A DNA stretch of 39,449 nt from Gammaproteobacteria bacterium (GTDB lineage: Bacteria; Pseudomonadota; Gammaproteobacteria; Pseudomonadales; Azotimanducaceae), in the NCBI GenBank assembly GCA_002728675.1, contig PBVL01000014.1:1-39449 (forward strand), written 5' to 3'. Below the pieces are notes generated by a model. The model saw only the letters and a program-made list of their open reading frames with translations. It ran no database searches and was not told where the DNA came from. A program made the position numbers and the translations under genes. Position 1 is the first letter of the stretch. Each line of letters opens with the position of its first letter. This document shows positions 7,254 to 18,735 of the stretch, one piece after another.

Positions 7254-8706
7254 CTAGTTGAGGCTGCCGGATTGCTTCACGTAGTCCCGGTAGCGCGCGA
7301 ACGCGGTCTGATCGGTGAGGGCGTCGAACGGTTCCATCCAACGGTCGAGCAGCTCGGTGGCGAGGCGCGTATCGAACACCCGGTTTTCCCGCTCATCCGG
7401 ATCCGCCTCGAGGTCGAACAACTGGTGCGGGCGCTTGTCGACCGTCCCGAAGACCAGCTTGTGGTGCCGCGTGCGCAACATGGTCTGTCCGAAGAGATCC
7501 GAGACGATGGCCTCTTTCCCGGTGCTGTCGGACGTAAGATGCTCACACAGTGAACAACCCATTGCGGAGTCGAGCGGCTCCGCCCCCGCTATGTCACGAA
7601 GGGTCGCCGGAACGTCGATCAGTTCGACAAGCGCGTTGCTCACCCGGCCCGTGATCCCACCGGGTGGGCGCAGGATGCAGGGTACAGTCACTGACTGGCG
7701 ATAGAAAACGGTCTTGCCCCAGAGCGCGTGGTCTCCCAGCATCTCGCCGTGATCGAAGATGAAGACGATCCAGGTGTTCGAAAGCCAGTCGCGGCGCCTG
7801 AGCACGGCGAGGATTTCGCCAATCCAGTCGTCGATCAGCGAGACGTTGCCGAGATACGCGGCCCGCCAGCGTTGGCGCTCACTGATCGTGGCGGCGCCAA
7901 TGGTGCGATTCCGTCGGAGCAGGGCGCGGATACGCCCCGGGACCGGATCATCAGGCGGTTCGGGGATCCCGGGGTCCAGTTCGTGCGCGTCGTATCGGGC
8001 GCGGTGTATGCGAGCGGGCCGTCAAACGGGTCGTGAGGGCCGGTGAATTGTGCCTGCAGGTAGAATGGCTGCTCGCCGTCGTGGCGCTCAAGCCAGCGCA
8101 CGACATTGCTGCCAATGAAGCTGTCGATGTCTTCGCCCTCGGGGACGGGCGACGGGCGCTGATCCCATGGGCGCACCTCACCTGAACGCATCTGGTCGAC
8201 CCACTCCTGGATGTAGGCCTGGTGTTCGGCGAGCCAACCGCGCGACTCCAGATAGTCCGTGTAGCTGCAGCCGGCGTGGCGCGTGCCGATCGGATCGTTG
8301 ACCTCCATGCGCTCGTCAAACCCCACGCCGCGAGGTTGGCGTCGCCGTCCCGGGTGTGGGTGCCGGCCGCCGTTGCGGGACCATCCCGGTACAGGTGACA
8401 CTTGCCGATGACCGCCGTCGTGTAACCCTGGTCGCGCACATCCCGCACATGACTTGGCCCTGCCGGGTTGGCGCCTGCGGCGTTGCTCCATACGCCGTGC
8501 TGACGCGGCAGCAGCCCGGTGGCGACGGACGCGCGGGCAGGAACACAGAGCGGAGCGTTCGAAACGCACTGAGTGAACAGGATGCCTTCGGCAGCGATCG
8601 CGTCAAGGTGAGGGGTCAGTGCCTGGCTACCGGGGTAGGCGCCGATCGCGTCGGCCCGTTGCTGGTCCGTCGCGATCACGAGGATGTTGGTGCGGGTCCC
8701 ACTCAT
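7254..8706 (-). pseudogene. Type I sulfatase/arylsulfatase broken by two frameshifts (or sequencing errors)
   Basis: Three ORFs in three minus frames join into one sulfatase: NILVIATDQQRADAIGAY...CVPARASVATG, then GFDERMEVNDPIGTRHAG...FYLQAQFTGPHDPFDGPLAYTAPDTT, then AHELDPGIPEPP...DHGEMLGDHALWGKTVFYRQSVTVPCILRPPG; breaks near 8320-8330 and 7985-8000. Confidence 0.85.
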
Positions 8707-9741
8707 CTGACGCGACGCGCGTGGTCAACCTCCGCCCGGATGGTCGTCGTGATGCGCGCGGCGTCGAAAGGCTTCGGTACGAACGGTACGGCCCGGAGGC
8801 GTGGATCGTTGGGTTCGCTGTATCCGCTCATCACGATGACGGGCAGCTCAGGCTGACGCCGGTTGATCTCAATGTACGCAGTTGCGCCATCCATCCTGGG
8901 CATGGAGCGATCGAGCAGCACGCAGTCGAATCGCGCGGACTCGATCTGAGCAATCGCGTCGACGCCGTCTTCGACTTTGACCACATCGGGGCCGGTTGCC
9001 CTCAGTATCGATGCGACTGTGGTCAGCACGATCGGATCGTCATCGGCAACCAGCACGTGCAGGCCTTTCGGCGAAGGATCGAGCAGGGACAACTGCCGAT
9101 GAGCAACCGCAATCGCGTCCCCGTCGCCGACCGGAAACAGGACCCTGATTTCCGTGCCGGCTTTGGGCTGCGAGTTCAACGCGATGCGACCGTCCAGTCT
9201 GCGAGCGATGCCCAGCGTCGCGGCAAGACCCAGGCCGCGTCCACCGGACTTCGTCGAGAAGAATGGGTCGAAGATCCTGGCAAGATGTGGCGTTTCGATA
9301 CCGACACCGTAACTTGGCATCCTGATTGGGGGCGGACAAGTCCCGCAGGACGAACATCATGACGCGCTCGCCGGCAAGAGGGAACGGTTGAATGAGGCAC
9401 TGCGTGACGAACAGGGTGCCGTCGGACCGGCGCACTTCGCGCGTGAACCAGTGCCCGCCTTCCTTGGCCGCAATCTCCGCGCGTGCTCGGCGCGTGCGAG
9501 TGCCTGCCACGGCTGGTATGTGGGCAGGAAGGTGCGGGCGGTAGTTGACGTCCTCGAGTCGCTGCGCCGGTGTCGTGCGCACCATGCGCTGCAGAGGCGC
9601 ATTGAGATAGACGGTCCTGTTTTCGTAGGGATCAGAGAGCAGGACGCCGTAGGGCAATGCGTCGAGTACGTGTCGGTAGGTGTCCGGTGACACGCGCTCC
9701 CCCGATCTGTGAGCGTCCTTGCAGACAGCGGCATCCCGCAT
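8703..9741 (-). pseudogene. PAS-containing hybrid histidine kinase/response receiver with HisKA and N-box region missing
   Basis: N-part PAS (YRHVLDALPYGVLLSDPYENRTVYLNAPLQRM...FVLRDLSAPNQDAKLR) joins out of frame to G1/F/G2 boxes (GVGIETPHLARIFDPFFSTKSGGRGLGLAATLGIARRLDGRI) plus REC domain (VLVADDDPIVLTTVASILRATG...VLLDRSMPRMDG...VIVMSGYSE). Confidence 0.8.
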
Positions 9742-10635: not shown

Positions 10636-11585
<950 letters not shown>

Positions 11586-11586
<1 letters not shown>

Positions 11587-12653
11587 CAGTTGGCGCGCTC
11601 CGGTCGGGACGTACCGCCTGCCGCTTCGGGTCCGGGTGCATCCGGGTGATGCAGCCAACAGCGGGCGGTATGGCCAGCGCCGTTGCCCTGACCGAACTCG
11701 GGTGGCGTCTCCCGTCCGCAGACGCGCATCGCGTTCGGGCAACGTGCGAAGTAACCGCAGCCCGCGGGTGGGTCGAAGAGGTCGGGCGGGCTGCCCAGGA
11801 TGGGCTCCAGTTGTTTGTCGCGGTCGGCCCGGTTTGACGGCATGGCATCCTTGAGGCCCAGCGTGTATGGATGGCCCGATCGGTAGAAGATATCGTCGAC
11901 CGTGCCGGACTCGATCGCCTGTCCGGCGTACATGACGGCAACGGTGTCGGACATGCGTGCAACAACGGCAAGGTCGTGTGTGATGAGAATGATGGACATC
12001 CCGTCGTCACGCTGAAGCTCACGCATGAGTTCCAGGATCTGCGCCTGAATCGTGACGTCGAGCGCGGTGGTGGGTTCGTCCGCGATCAGGATCGATGGAC
12101 CGCACGCAAGACTCTGCGCGATCATCGCCCGCTGGAGCATGCCGCCGGAGAACTCGAACGGGTATTGGCGCGCGCGACGTTTGGCTTCCGGAATCCTGGT
12201 CTTGTCGAGGAGTTGCTCGGCGGCCCGGAGCGCCTCGCCGTGACTCTGACCGCGATGCACCATCAGCGTCTCGGCGATCTGCTCGCCGATGGTCATGGTG
12301 GGATTGAGCGATGTCATCGGGTCCTGGAAGATCATTCCAAGCTCAACGCCGCGGTATTTGTTCGCCTCGGCGGGGGGCAGTCCCAGCAGTTCGACGCCGC
12401 CGAGCTTCGCCGAACCCGCGGTGATGCGTCCGGGCGGCGTCGGGATGAGTCCCATGATCGACTGCACGGTCACCGACTTCCCGCATCCGGACTCGCCGAC
12501 GATCGACAGCGTTTGCCCCCTGGCGACCTCGAAGTCGACTCCACGCACCGCCTGCACGACGCCGCCGTAGGTTGCGAACTCCACGTGGAGGTCGCGTACC
12601 ACGAGGAGCGGCTCGGTCGCTTGCCGGGTCGTGTCGGAGTCGTTCATCGGCAT
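11586..12653 (-). CDS. oppD: Oligopeptide/dipeptide ABC transporter ATP-binding protein (OppD type)
   Basis: Walker A GESGCGKSVTVQ, FSGGMLQRAMIAQSLACGPSILIADEPTTALD, C-terminal CGYFARCPNAMRVC. Confidence 0.93.
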
Positions 12654-12654
12654 C

Positions 12655-14058
12655 TCAGTCCCGTGCCCGCAGGCGTGAGTCGAGCGCCTCGGTCAGACCA
12701 TCACCCAACAGGTTGAACGCGAGCACGGTGATGCTGATGAAGGCGGCGGGGAAGATGAGTTCGTGTGGATGACTGAGCATTGTCTTCACGCCTTCGTTGC
12801 ACATGGAACCCCAGGAGGGCGTGGGTGGCGCAACGCCCATCCCGATGAACGAGAGGAACGCTTCCGTGAAGATGGCCGACGGCACGGCGAACGTCAGTGT
12901 CACGAGGATCACGCCCATGGTGTTGGGGATGATGTGGCGGACGATCAGGTAGTGGTTGCGCGCACCAAGCAGTCGCGCCGCGTCGATGTAGCCTTCCTCC
13001 CGGATCTGCAGCACCTGGCCCCGCACCAGGCGCGCCGTCGCGGGCCACCCGAGCAGGACGAGCGCGATCAGCATCGGCAGGATGCCGGATTCCCCCGGAC
13101 CGATCCCGAATGCGATCTTGAAAATGATCATGAAAAGCAGGAATGGCAGCGCGACGACAAAGTCTGCAAATCGCATGAAGACCGCGTCGAGACGCCCGCC
13201 GAGGTAGCCGGCGAATCCGCCGTAGACGATGCCGAAGGTGACATAGAGCATCGGCGCCACGATGCCGATGAAGAGCGACACGCGCGCGCCCTGCATCAGC
13301 CTTGCGAGCATGTCCCTGCCGAGATAGTCGGTGCCGAACGGGTGAAACCCGAGGCTGATGGTGTCGCCCAGTGCCGCCGCTTCGTCGATGAGCCCCCGTT
13401 CCAGCGCCTCGCCACGCGTGATCGCGAGTTGCGGAACAACCGCAAGGGCGATGTAGTTGAACCCTTCATCCACGCCATCGGTGGGGACGATCGAATAGTA
13501 GTAGGGGATTGCGGAGAGGTTCAGGCGGTCCTCGTAGCTCACCTCGTTGCCGGCGTAGGTCGAGCCGAGGGGCAGACCCAGATCGTCCAGCGACTCGGGC
13601 GGCCTCTGGTTACGGTAGATGTTGTAGCCGGCTGCGCCCTCAGCAGGATCCCAGACGAGGCGCACCCGCTGCGTTGTGGCGCTGTCGACCGTCCTGAGGT
13701 TGGTGGGTGCGGGGATGTCTTCGACATAGTCATCAGGCTCAGCCGGGTAGTCGCTCAGGACCACACCCGGCCAGCGTTCCCGCGGGCCCACCAGGGTCGC
13801 CTGTTTTGGCCAGGCGGGCGCCTGGGAGATTTGGTTCAGGTCCTGCAGCGCCGGGTCTACGGTCCAGACGAGCGGGCCGAGCAGCGTGAAGGCCGCGAGA
13901 GCGACGACAATGTAGAGCGAGACGATGGCGCGCGGGTTCTTTTTGAGACGCAGCCAGGCATCCTGCCAGTACGAAAGCGACGGGCGTGACAGCGTTTCGA
14001 CGTGAATATCCGCTGTAGCGGGTTCAAAGTCGCCGGGCTGGGGTTGGTAGGTCCGCAT
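12655..14058 (-). CDS. oppC: Oligopeptide ABC transporter permease (OppC type) with an extra FN3-like periplasmic domain
   Basis: C-terminal HPFGTDYLGRDMLARLMQGARVSL...EEGYIDAARLLGARNHYLIVRHIIPN is canonical OppC; about 95-aa FN3-like insert between TM1 and that motif. Confidence 0.92.
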   Translation of the reverse strand: MRTYQPQPGDFEPATADIHVETLSRPSLSYWQDAWLRLKKNPRAIVSLYIVVALAAFTLLGPLVWTVDPALQDLNQISQAPAWPKQATLVGPRERWPGVVLSDYPAEPDDYVEDIPAPTNLRTVDSATTQRVRLVWDPAEGAAGYNIYRNQRPPESLDDLGLPLGSTYAGNEVSYEDRLNLSAIPYYYSIVPTDGVDEGFNYIALAVVPQLAITRGEALERGLIDEAAALGDTISLGFHPFGTDYLGRDMLARLMQGARVSLFIGIVAPMLYVTFGIVYGGFAGYLGGRLDAVFMRFADFVVALPFLLFMIIFKIAFGIGPGESGILPMLIALVLLGWPATARLVRGQVLQIREEGYIDAARLLGARNHYLIVRHIIPNTMGVILVTLTFAVPSAIFTEAFLSFIGMGVAPPTPSWGSMCNEGVKTMLSHPHELIFPAAFISITVLAFNLLGDGLTEALDSRLRARD

Positions 14059-14990
14059 CAGGCAAGCCTCACGCGCGGGTCGACCAGGCCGTACACAATA
14101 TCGACAACGATGACCATGAAGACGAGAAACGCGCCATAGAACACCGTTGTGCCCATGATGACGGTGTAGTCGAGTTGTTGTACCGCTTGTACGAAGTAGC
14201 GACCGAGGCCGGGGATCGCGAAGACCAGTTCAACGACGAAGCCGCCGGTCGTGATTGCGGCGATCTGAGGCCCAAGGACAGTAATCACAGGCAGGATCGC
14301 GTTTCGCAACTGGTGTTTGCAGAAGATGCGAACCGGGGAAAGTCCCTTCGCGCGCGCCGTGCGGATGTAGTCCTCGTTCACGACCTCGAGCATGGAAGAC
14401 CGCATCAGTCGGGTCAGCAAGGCCATCGTGCCGAGCCCGAGGACGAGTGAAGGCATCAGCATGTGCTGGAAGGTGCCCCAGCCGGCCACGGGGATGATCG
14501 ATGCACCAAAGAAGCTGTTGATGTTCACCAGCAGCAGTTGCCCCAGCGCCGCGAACACAAAGCTCGGCACCGAGATGCCGAGAATGACGAGGAACATGAT
14601 GATGATGTCCGGCAGCCTGTTTCGGTAGATGGCCGTCAGTGCGCCCCACAGGACGCCGCCGGCGGCGGCGATCACCACCGCCATGACGCCAAGCAGGGCT
14701 GACACCGGGAAGTGGTCGCGGATGATGTCGTTGACGCGCCGATTCTGCTGGGTAAACGAAATGCCGAAGTCGCCGTGCCAGAACATGTTGGTCATGTAGA
14801 GCACATATTGCTCGCCGAGCGGTCGGTCCAGCCCGTACTTGGCCTCGAGGTTCTGGCGAATCTCATCCGAGACCGCCTTGTCGTTCAGCAACGGGTCGCC
14901 CGGCACCGCGTGCATGGCGATGAACGTGGCGGTCGCAATGAACCAGACGGTGACGATGCCCTGCAGCAGCCGTTTCAGGGTATAGCTCAT
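14058..14990 (-). CDS. oppB: Oligopeptide ABC transporter permease (OppB type)
   Basis: MSYTLKRLLQGIVTVWFIATATFIAMHAVPGDP; EDYIRTARAKGLSPVRIFCKHQLRNAILPVITVLG EAA-type loop; ATGA overlap with oppC. Confidence 0.93.
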   Translation of the reverse strand: MSYTLKRLLQGIVTVWFIATATFIAMHAVPGDPLLNDKAVSDEIRQNLEAKYGLDRPLGEQYVLYMTNMFWHGDFGISFTQQNRRVNDIIRDHFPVSALLGVMAVVIAAAGGVLWGALTAIYRNRLPDIIIMFLVILGISVPSFVFAALGQLLLVNINSFFGASIIPVAGWGTFQHMLMPSLVLGLGTMALLTRLMRSSMLEVVNEDYIRTARAKGLSPVRIFCKHQLRNAILPVITVLGPQIAAITTGGFVVELVFAIPGLGRYFVQAVQQLDYTVIMGTTVFYGAFLVFMVIVVDIVYGLVDPRVRLA

Positions 14991-15054: not shown

Positions 15055-16665
15055 TCAACGAATGACCCTTGCGTAGGTGAAATCCGGGTCGGCGCCGGTG
15101 ACACGTCGCACGACGCCGCGCAGCTTGTGGTGCTGCAGGTAGATGACGCCCTGTTCGTACTGGGGCAGGACGACGGCATCCTCAAAGAGGATGCGCTGGA
15201 GCTCTCCCATGGCGTCCATGCGGATTTTCGGTACGGTGCTGTTCTGTGCAATCCGGACCTGTCTGTCGTACTCGGGGTTCTCGTAGCGGCCGCGGTTGTT
15301 CAGGTTCCAGGAAGCGAACAGGTCACCGAACGTCATGACGTCATCGAAGTCGGGGCCCCAGCCGGCGCCGACGATGTCGAAGTCACCGGAGGTCATCTTC
15401 GCCAGTCGCTGTTTGAACGTCTGGACGTCGATCTTGATATCGATACCGAGGCGCGACTTGAAAAGTCCCTGGATGTACTCGGCCTGTTTGATCGCGGTAG
15501 GGCTGTCGCTGACGAGCAGGACGAGGGGAGGAATCGACGACAGGCCGAGTTCCTTTTTGGCGGCGTCCATGAGGGTGCGCGCCTTCGCGTAGTTGAGTTC
15601 GGCTGTTGGCGCGGGGTACTCGTCGCGGAACTTGCCCGAAACGCCGTCGAGCCACACCGGGAACAGGCTGATGCCGGGTAGGTTGCCGGGAGTCGCGAGG
15701 ACCTTGTCGACCATTTCGTCCGGGTCGTACGCGTGCTGGATCGCGCGGCGCAGGCTGAGGCTTCTGGTCGGCCGGTCCGACCGGTGGTTGTACTCGAGGA
15801 AGAAGACCGACCCCGTCGTGAAGCGGCGGATTCGCAGACGTTGGGTGAGTGCATCCTTGTAAGTCTCGCCATTGAGGCGTGTGTGAACAATCTTGTCGTC
15901 TATGAACAGATTCAGCCGTGCACGGGTATCAGCCGTGATGTAGTCCGCATGGATGCCGTTGAGGGTGATCGCGTCACGGTCCCAGTAGCGGGTGTTTTTC
16001 TCCATCCTGAGGGATGCACTGTGGACCCAGTTCGTCATGGTGAACGGACCGTTGTACAGCAGGTCTCCGGCATCGGCGGCGTAGCGGTCCCCTCGGGAGC
16101 GGTAGAAATCCTCACGTACCGGGAAGTACGTCACAAAGGCAACGAGCTTGTCGAAGTAACCGGTGGGCGTTTCGAACTCCACTTCGAGTGTCGTGTCGTC
16201 GACTGCCGTGACCCCGAGGGCGGTGGTGGGCTGCTGTCCGCGGTTGACGGCCTCGGCGTTCTTCACCGGATACAGAATGAAGGCGTACTCGGATGCGGTG
16301 GCCGGGTCCAGCACGTTGCGCCAGGCGAAGACGAAATCCTGTGCGCGGACGGGCTTGCCGTCGCTCCAGTAGGCATCCGAACGCAGTTTGAACGTTGCTC
16401 CGTCTGGACGCATGTCCCAGGACTCGGCCACGCCGGGCACGATCCGCCCCCGGCGGTCGTAGCGCACGAGTCCCTCGGTGACGTGGCTCAGAACAAGGAT
16501 GCTGACCTGGTCGGTCGCCTTCATCCCGTTCAACAGTGGTGGCTCCTGGGTGAGCGCAATGCGGATGAGCTGTTTTCCGAAGTCGACGGCGTCATCGGCG
16601 AGTGCTGCAGCACTCGACAGGAGTGTCGCGAGGCTCAGCGCCGTGGCGGTCATCGTCCGCCGCAT
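15055..16665 (-). CDS. oppA: Peptide ABC transporter substrate-binding protein (SBP family 5, OppA type)
   Basis: Signal peptide MRRTMTATALSLATLLSSAAALA; VTEGLVRYDRRGRIVPGVAESWDMRPDGATFKLRSDAYWSDGKPVRAQDFVFAWRNVLDP typical of OppA. Confidence 0.93.
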   Translation of the reverse strand: MRRTMTATALSLATLLSSAAALADDAVDFGKQLIRIALTQEPPLLNGMKATDQVSILVLSHVTEGLVRYDRRGRIVPGVAESWDMRPDGATFKLRSDAYWSDGKPVRAQDFVFAWRNVLDPATASEYAFILYPVKNAEAVNRGQQPTTALGVTAVDDTTLEVEFETPTGYFDKLVAFVTYFPVREDFYRSRGDRYAADAGDLLYNGPFTMTNWVHSASLRMEKNTRYWDRDAITLNGIHADYITADTRARLNLFIDDKIVHTRLNGETYKDALTQRLRIRRFTTGSVFFLEYNHRSDRPTRSLSLRRAIQHAYDPDEMVDKVLATPGNLPGISLFPVWLDGVSGKFRDEYPAPTAELNYAKARTLMDAAKKELGLSSIPPLVLLVSDSPTAIKQAEYIQGLFKSRLGIDIKIDVQTFKQRLAKMTSGDFDIVGAGWGPDFDDVMTFGDLFASWNLNNRGRYENPEYDRQVRIAQNSTVPKIRMDAMGELQRILFEDAVVLPQYEQGVIYLQHHKLRGVVRRVTGADPDFTYARVIR

Positions 16666-17149: not shown

Positions 17150-17183
17150 AAAAAGGGGAGCCTCGGCTCCCCTTTTCTTTTGC
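17150..17183 (+). terminator. Rho-independent terminator downstream of the TBDR relic
   Basis: AAAAGGGGAGCC-TC-GGCTCCCCTTTT inverted repeat followed by a T-rich tract. Confidence 0.85.
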
Positions 17184-17274: not shown

Positions 17275-18735
17275 TCAGCTTGCGGAGCGCAGCAGGTTGC
17301 CAACGACGCGTTCGAGGTGCATGAGCGAGTTGCAGACCTCAACCTGATGGCAGGCGGGCGCGTACTTCTTCATCTCGGCATCGCCGACTGTCCAGCTCAT
17401 CTTCGGTTCTGGGTTGAGCCAGATGACACGCTTCGACTTGTCGTACATCTCGCGGAGGATCTCGGATTTCGGGTCCCCGTAGTTGTTCCTGGCGTCGCCG
17501 AGGATGATGATCGTCGTCTTGTTGTTGACGTCCCTCATGCAGTGGCTCTTGAAGTCCTCGAGCATCTGCCCGTAGTCCGTTGAGCCGTTCCCGTAGTCGC
17601 GCATCGTCTTGGCAATGGCGGTCTCGAGGTCCGACTGTTCGAACAACCGGGTGACCTCCCCAAGGTCTGAAGAGAACGCAAACGCGCGCACCTTCGGCAG
17701 TACCTCGGTGAGGCTGTAGAGGAACATCAGCAGAAAGCGGGAGTAGTTGCTCACCGAACCGCTGACGTCGCAGATGCACATGACCTTCGGGCGGTCGACC
17801 TTCTGTGCCTTCCAATGGATATCGAACAACGCGCCGTCGTACTGCATGTTGTTGCGCAGCGTCTTGCGCACGTCGAGTTGGCCGCGCTTGAAGGTCTTGC
17901 GGCGCTTGGAGTGGATGGCGATGAGTTTCTTCGCCATCTTCATGACCACCTCATGGACGTCTTTGAAGTTGCGCTTCTCGACGTTGGAGAGTTTGACCTT
18001 CTTGAGCAGTTCTTCGCGGAGCTGTTTGCCCTTCTCGTCGGCATGCAGAAAGAACTGCCGCTCGACGTAGTCCCGTACGGTCTCGCGGAGGCGATCGCGC
18101 CCGTTCTTGAGTACGTTCGACAGGCGCTTTTGCGGGATTCCGCCGTGCGCCCGCAGCTCACCGATCTCGTCGTTGAGCCCCTTCATGCCCATGGCGTCCA
18201 TGATCTTGCGGGTGTACAGGCCTTTCTGGGTGAAGACGACGATCTGGTTGACTTCGACTTCGCGTCCGGCCTCCGCGATCGCGATCATGATTTCGGTCTT
18301 GTTGCCCCGCATGAGCATCTGACCGAGCTCTGACTGTGGGGTCAGGGAGCTCTCGCCCGCCTCACTCTCCTCGACGTCGCCGCCGGCGCCGCCGCCCATG
18401 CCCTGGCCGGAGCCGCGCCCGCCTTCTCCGGAGCGCTCGCCCGAAGGGTCGAACTCGCCGTCGTCGGACGCATCGCCGTCGCCCCAGTCATCACTCTCTT
18501 CGCTCTCGCCTTCAGAGAACTTGTCGAAGGTAAAGAACCGATCGAAACAGGTGTCGAACGCTTCCTTCTCTTCCGGGTTCTTGGACAGAACGATGGATAG
18601 CGTGTCCTTGAGAAACCGCCGGTCTTCGTAGCCGACGATGACCATGGCGTGCATCGCGTCGAGCGTTTCGGCCGGCGACACCTTGATCTCTGCGGTGCGC
18701 AGCGCCTTCACGAAGTCGACGAGTGTACGTTCCAT
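17275..18735 (-). CDS. VWA-domain protein, CoxE-like
   Basis: MIDAS CICDVSGSVSNYSRFLLMFLYSL, Gly/Glu-rich linker, ATGA overlap with the MoxR gene. Confidence 0.88.
   Translation of the reverse strand: MERTLVDFVKALRTAEIKVSPAETLDAMHAMVIVGYEDRRFLKDTLSIVLSKNPEEKEAFDTCFDRFFTFDKFSEGESEESDDWGDGDASDDGEFDPSGERSGEGGRGSGQGMGGGAGGDVEESEAGESSLTPQSELGQMLMRGNKTEIMIAIAEAGREVEVNQIVVFTQKGLYTRKIMDAMGMKGLNDEIGELRAHGGIPQKRLSNVLKNGRDRLRETVRDYVERQFFLHADEKGKQLREELLKKVKLSNVEKRNFKDVHEVVMKMAKKLIAIHSKRRKTFKRGQLDVRKTLRNNMQYDGALFDIHWKAQKVDRPKVMCICDVSGSVSNYSRFLLMFLYSLTEVLPKVRAFAFSSDLGEVTRLFEQSDLETAIAKTMRDYGNGSTDYGQMLEDFKSHCMRDVNNKTTIIILGDARNNYGDPKSEILREMYDKSKRVIWLNPEPKMSWTVGDAEMKKYAPACHQVEVCNSLMHLERVVGNLLRSAS

Follow-up and report, generated by a model that had tools for sequence, protein, structure and literature searches.

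The permease gene at positions 12655–14058 (minus strand) of the stretch analysed here, a window of 39,449 nucleotides from a gammaproteobacterium, raises the question of what an additional periplasmic segment does on a peptide importer. A sequence-only reading had described the gene product as a 467-aa OppC-type permease that carries a fibronectin type III (FN3)-like segment between TM1 and the HPFGTDYLGRD motif. The open reading frame is present as described, and the segment at 13435–13716 corresponds to residues 115–208, with the quoted peptide exact. In other respects the transporter is an ordinary Opp system. Type I importer permeases with folded periplasmic domains are rarely described; the precedent, and the textbook case, is MalF-P2.

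An OppC-type permease in an oppABCDF operon

Based on the open reading frames and on Pfam, NCBIfam and phmmer searches, the 467-aa protein is the OppC of an oppABCDF operon that lies entirely on the minus strand. The operon comprises oppA (15055–16665), which encodes an SBP_bac_5 peptide-binding protein with a Sec signal and without a lipobox; oppB (14058–14990), a permease with a conserved scoop region after TM1 (HAVPGDP...KYGLD); and the ATPase genes oppD (11586–12653) and oppF (10636–11586). The ends of oppB, oppC, oppD and oppF overlap or adjoin. Across the 192 loci collected, the order oppABCDF is intact in 162, and most exceptions are contig ends.

In the Pfam scan of the 467-aa protein, residues 29–81 match OppC_N (55.6 bits, cut-off 23.9) and residues 276–464 match BPD_transp_1 (117.8 bits, cut-off 26.4), the transmembrane domain (TMD; 12667–13233), while residues 82–238 have no match. 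Among solved structures, E. coli OppC (8z21_B) is the closest relative (phmmer E 4.8e-58 over residues 238–462). By both domain scores, which exceed the gathering score, and by the make-up of the operon, the protein is a member of the OppC/DppC family. The top NCBIfam model, Opp3C (E 8e-86), aligns over two separate segments, of which residues 240–464 score better, and remains under its cut-off. The insert accounts for the size of about 460 aa of the OppC proteins of this clade, and it may help explain the sub-cut-off scores of annotation models built on OppC proteins of about 300 aa.

Three further observations concern the surroundings of the operon. A perfect 11-pair hairpin (AAAAGGGGAGCCTCGGCTCCCCTTTT) at 17151–17176, in the gap that separates the opp operon from the adjacent minus-strand gene (17275–18735), is likely a terminator. 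A sulfatase-like gene at 7835–8706 is split over two overlapping minus-strand frames and looks frameshifted, or reflects an assembly error. At 8703–9741, an apparent hybrid histidine kinase with sensor, ATPase and receiver parts extends over overlapping minus-strand frames, which suggests a frameshift near 9330.

Position and organization of the insert

All elements of OppC given here are on the minus strand. TM1 (residues 44–65; 13864–13929) was placed from an AlphaFold2 helix at 42–64 and the OppC_N match. It is followed by a conserved linker, DPALQDLNQISQAP (residues 66–84; 13807–13863), which is equivalent to the entire short loop of an ordinary OppC. According to AlphaFold2 and the alignment, the insert proper (residues 85–238; 13345–13806) then contains an extra strand (85–90), the FN3 core, a helix (215–220) and a strand (233–236). 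The canonical permease core begins with HPFGTDYLGRD (residues 239–249; 13312–13344). Conservation extends over about residues 82–238, a wider stretch than the 115–208 first noted, with conserved flanks on either side of the FN3 core, and the insert varies between 143 and 203 aa across its members.

The distance from TM1 to the motif is about 173 residues, compared with 21–24 in the nearest insert-free relatives, so the short TM1–TM2 periplasmic loop of the nearest OppC proteins is absent here. The earlier statement that standard OppC proteins have about 300 aa and a short loop holds for these nearest relatives. The source genome has 15 other OppC-type permeases, however, and in 9 of them, YejE-like and similar, the loop measures 77–93 aa; a short loop is typical of the nearest OppC and not definitional for the whole OppC/DppC family. 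The TM1-to-motif loop is a recurring insertion site in OppC-type permeases, as seen in these YejE-like and other paralogues (L090, L097–L100, L164–L167). Moreover, genome G846 has an insert of another kind, about 100 aa long and apparently helical, in the same loop (L284; also L285).

The insert is predicted to adopt an FN3 fold

To characterize the fold, we modelled the insert alone and within full-length OppC. AlphaFold2 predicted a beta-sandwich for the insert alone (residues 67–238, 63 relatives) with a pLDDT of 92.7 and a pTM of 0.83. The seven strands of the core (residues 115–208; 13435–13716) lie at 119–123, 132–137, 144–150, about 163–167, 174–177, 186–193 and 203–207, and additional elements outside the core occur at 85–90, 212–220 and 233–236. 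In the full-length model (70 relatives), the insert folds alike in place, with a pLDDT of about 86–94 over residues 90–210; confidence drops in the membrane part, and with a pTM of 0.51 the model does not reveal how the domain is oriented. Foldseek recovers OppC/DppC for the membrane part and FN3 for the insert.

Against the PDB, the 50 Foldseek matches listed for the insert model are FN3 domains or FN3-containing proteins throughout. They include the designed FN3con (4u3h; E 4.7e-5, TMt 0.71), neogenin FN5-6, adnectin, tencon, monobodies and a bacterial Fn3-like protein, 3mpc (TMt 0.68). The last is also the best match of the insert profile among PDB sequences (E 0.019). Pfam fn3 (PF00041) is matched by 4 of the 63 insert members, at best with E 0.02 and below the gathering threshold, and the insert of the source genome has no match to this family; the insert is accordingly classified as an FN3-fold domain without PF00041 membership. 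GH85_C and DUF4992 were considered as its Pfam family and rejected, as their matches were weak and none was significant.

The hallmarks of FN3, namely the core Trp of strand B and the aromatics of strands C and F, are present. Among 152 distinct sequences, W136 and Y188 occur in all, Y186 in 148 and Y145 in 142 (otherwise F or H). Collectively, the predicted structure indicates that the insert has a fibronectin type III fold, and the sequence, a weaker line of evidence, points in the same direction. The FN3 identity proposed from sequence is thus supported by the predicted beta-sandwich, by the FN3 proteins at the top of the structural matches and by a weak profile match.

Distribution and single origin

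A scan of 84,980 species genomes placed the insert in all 80 of the closest relatives kept. With the insert profile, strong matches were found in 109 of the 121 genomes of the family of the source genome, with G824 as a weak 110th; the insert occurs in about 63 of 392 genomes of the order. In a phylum-wide draw of 399, it is confined to the source genome and a single family of another class (f38, four genomes). Named carriers include Pseudohongiella sp. O18 and MAGs labelled OM182, K189A and SAR86, and the lineage consists mostly of marine bacteria. No insert-bearing copy was found in the plasmid collection. Other profile matches at E 1e-6 to 1e-3 were counted as other FN3-like proteins (one of them checked); the lipoprotein match in G585 (E 1.2e-6) proved to be a separate Lcl_C-domain protein with an FN3-like N-terminal part and no permease. 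In family f108, represented mostly by complete genomes of the order (L132–L134), the insert is shortened and strongly diverged (E about 1e-10 to 1e-17) and retains the W, YR and D core.

A search with the membrane domain only returned 28 genomes with a copy of at least 60% identity, all in frames of at least 444 aa, and the next tier has 45–49% identity and frames of 295–318 aa. Among 229 genomes drawn from the class, only the source genome has a clade member (others at best 43–49%). In a maximum-likelihood tree of the membrane domain alone (62 rows), the 34 insert-bearing proteins lie on one side of a 100/100 branch, and presence of the insert requires one change, compared with 20.7 in shuffles. 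With midpoint rooting, the sister group is ordinary OppC with 21–24 aa from TM1 to the motif. Because all insert-bearing proteins fall into this one clade, the insert arose once. For the 12 family genomes that lack a strong match, an insert-free orthologue was sought and not found; the best copies reach 40–46% identity, and the gene itself is absent. Collectively, these results make the insert a trait of single origin that defines one OppC clade and that was never lost alone in the sampled genomes. Chance, an assembly artefact and a frameshift fusion are ruled out, as the insert is common to about 190 loci and its dN/dS is far below 1.

The sequence-only reading had allowed that the insert might be common to the OppC proteins of the clade and have a role already described. 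It is indeed clade-wide, whereas a described role was not found: the open-access literature, outside which most subscription journals fall, yielded no paper that connects FN3 to OppC or to the loops of ABC permeases.

Conservation and selection

Five residues of the insert, W136, R149, G161, D177 and Y188, are invariant in 152 of 152 distinct sequences. Arg and Asp at the places of R149 and D177 are also present in 3mpc, while LGLPL (residues 160–164; 13567–13581; G161 in 152 and P163 in 143 of the 152) is a clade-specific signature and a candidate contact surface. The median dN/dS of the insert is 0.106 (29 close pairs), compared with 0.018 for the membrane domain, and sequence entropy is 2.26 bits for FN3 and 0.74 bits for the TMD. 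The insert is under purifying selection, yet freer than the membrane core.

Possible roles of the FN3 domain

A domain with a predicted FN3 fold was inserted once, into the first periplasmic loop of the OppC of a clade ancestor, between TM1 and HPxGTDxxGRD, and has since been kept under purifying selection inside the oppABCDF operon. In the model that we favour, this domain stands on the periplasmic face, beside the substrate entrance, where it would provide a second contact for the soluble OppA besides the scoop loop of OppB. It may hold or orient OppA on OppBCDF and thereby prolong its residence time or convey a loading signal to the ATPases. The arrangement would be that of the maltose importer, with the scoop on one permease (OppB, compare MalG) and a beta-domain on the other (OppC, compare MalF). 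We infer the FN3–OppA contact from the position of the domain, anchored at the periplasmic side of the permease near the substrate entrance, and from three precedents. In the cryo-EM structure of DppABCDF, DppA caps this same face, and a scoop in DppB enters the DppA cleft (PMC12136057). E. coli DppA binds DppBCDF only transiently, unlike the stably bound SBPs of M. tuberculosis (PMC12136057). MalF-P2 (residues 91–271) directly contacts MalE (PMC3150292), while the scoop loop of the maltose importer is on MalG (PMC8134467).

Several observations count for docking. Beyond the A-B-C-D-F gene order, a lipobox-like motif is missing from OppA in 174 of 177 loci, and OppB is conserved in sequence at the position of the DppB scoop. 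In f38 (L136, L137, L207; G002, G022, G057), the operon with the FN3 insert consists of oppBCDF, and oppA is not adjacent to oppB; a sole OppA homologue (E <=1e-10, 55–57% identical) is nevertheless retained in 4 of 4 genomes, on another contig or some kilobases away. Furthermore, 10 of the 12 family genomes without the FN3 permease also have no matching OppA at E<=1e-60. Separately, one family genome without the permease has an orphan OppA of this type (L294, G850:C152; 52% identity) with no oppBCDF beside it.

Other observations count against docking or are neutral. Mean-field DCA of paired OppC and OppA (152 sequences) was uninformative at an effective number of 95: the coupling between FN3 and OppA is no higher than that of the impossible FN3–OppD pairs used as a control (top z 8.4 vs 8.1), and even the top pairs within OppC do not resemble contacts. 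Additionally, the FN3 sequence is more variable than the TMD, co-inheritance with OppA is expected of any operon subunit, and OppA/DppA serves ordinary Opp/Dpp importers that have no such domain. Weighing both sides, we consider OppA docking as the main role of the domain to be an evenly balanced proposition.

The main rival to docking is stabilisation of OppBC, in which FN3 would pack on the periplasmic loops of OppB and OppC and, with no contact to OppA, stabilise the heterodimer or the outward-facing state. The strict GLPL segment and the flanking linkers (66–84 and 209–238) suggest fixed packing on the permease, and the insert was never lost in the sample and is kept in f38 despite an unlinked oppA; however, ordinary OppBC pairs are stable without FN3, and the outer surface and loop lengths of the domain vary, as its size range shows, so that we regard this role as unlikely. 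The insert might also be a passive spacer or a leftover that a permissive loop has tolerated, with no function of its own. The other insertions accepted by the TM1–TM2 loop of OppC-type permeases (77–93 aa in YejE-like paralogues and about 100 aa, helical, in L284) and the faster evolution of the insert relative to the TMD fit this explanation, which nonetheless appears quite improbable given an omega well under 1, the five invariant residues and the finding that no sampled family has lost the insert alone.

Extracellular proteins of bacteria commonly use FN3 domains for binding or as spacers. In line with the alternative in the sequence-only reading of peptidoglycan or some partner, the domain might conceivably bind another envelope component (peptidoglycan, an outer-membrane channel or a periplasmic peptidase) and thereby place the importer near a source of peptides. 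A consistently attached extra gene was not found, the conserved block examined being just oppABCDF; Pfam searches matched no known peptidoglycan-binding motif; and a single FN3 domain spans only about 35–40 Å. We consider an envelope partner improbable. A lid or selectivity element, with FN3 loops that project over the entrance to select for peptide length or block back-escape, is the slimmest prospect: the domain adjoins the TM2 entrance and the role proposed for the DppB scoop offers a precedent (PMC12136057), but the scoop region of OppB is already there and conserved, and direct support is absent.

Returning to docking, a stronger version, which we advance tentatively and judge rather doubtful, is that a beta-sandwich captured once by an oligopeptide permease converted OppA from a soluble, transient binder to a stably docked subunit in much of a bacterial order, as a second, independently evolved form of the maltose importer's solution. 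If so, the SBP–permease affinity of type I importers would be an evolvable, modular trait. A single domain capture in an OppC clade of many uncultured marine gammaproteobacteria provides a natural experiment in the tuning of binding-protein docking, and the FN3-bearing importer probably feeds on dissolved peptides in the sea.

Comparison with known systems

Opp3C and E. coli OppC (NF045475, NF011935; 8z21_B) share with the 467-aa OppC the TMD family, the operon make-up and the HPxGTDxxGRD core. In contrast, they have no FN3 domain, and the 467-aa protein does not reach the NCBI equivalog cut-offs. The nearest solved sequence to the insert, the Fn3-like 3mpc of Clostridium thermocellum, has a common R...D pattern; it differs in that it has no GLPL segment and stands outside any permease. 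The scoop of DppB in E. coli DppABCDF is likewise periplasmic, follows TM1 of an Opp/Dpp permease and engages the binding protein. However, it is a short helical motif on the B subunit, whereas the insert is predicted to be a folded domain on the C subunit, and OppB here retains a scoop region of its own.

MalF-P2 is an Ig-like beta-sandwich located between TM3 and TM4, whereas the FN3 insert lies between TM1 and TM2. It is absent among the Foldseek matches listed for the insert, and the relationship is one of analogy, not homology. Its contact with MalE is demonstrated, while that of FN3 with OppA is proposed; similarly, the beta-domain is predicted on OppC, and a scoop on OppB is suggested by conserved sequence at the position of the DppB scoop. 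In both systems, one permease of a type I importer carries an extra periplasmic domain, of about 180 aa in MalF, and the partner permease bears the scoop, or here the region at its position.
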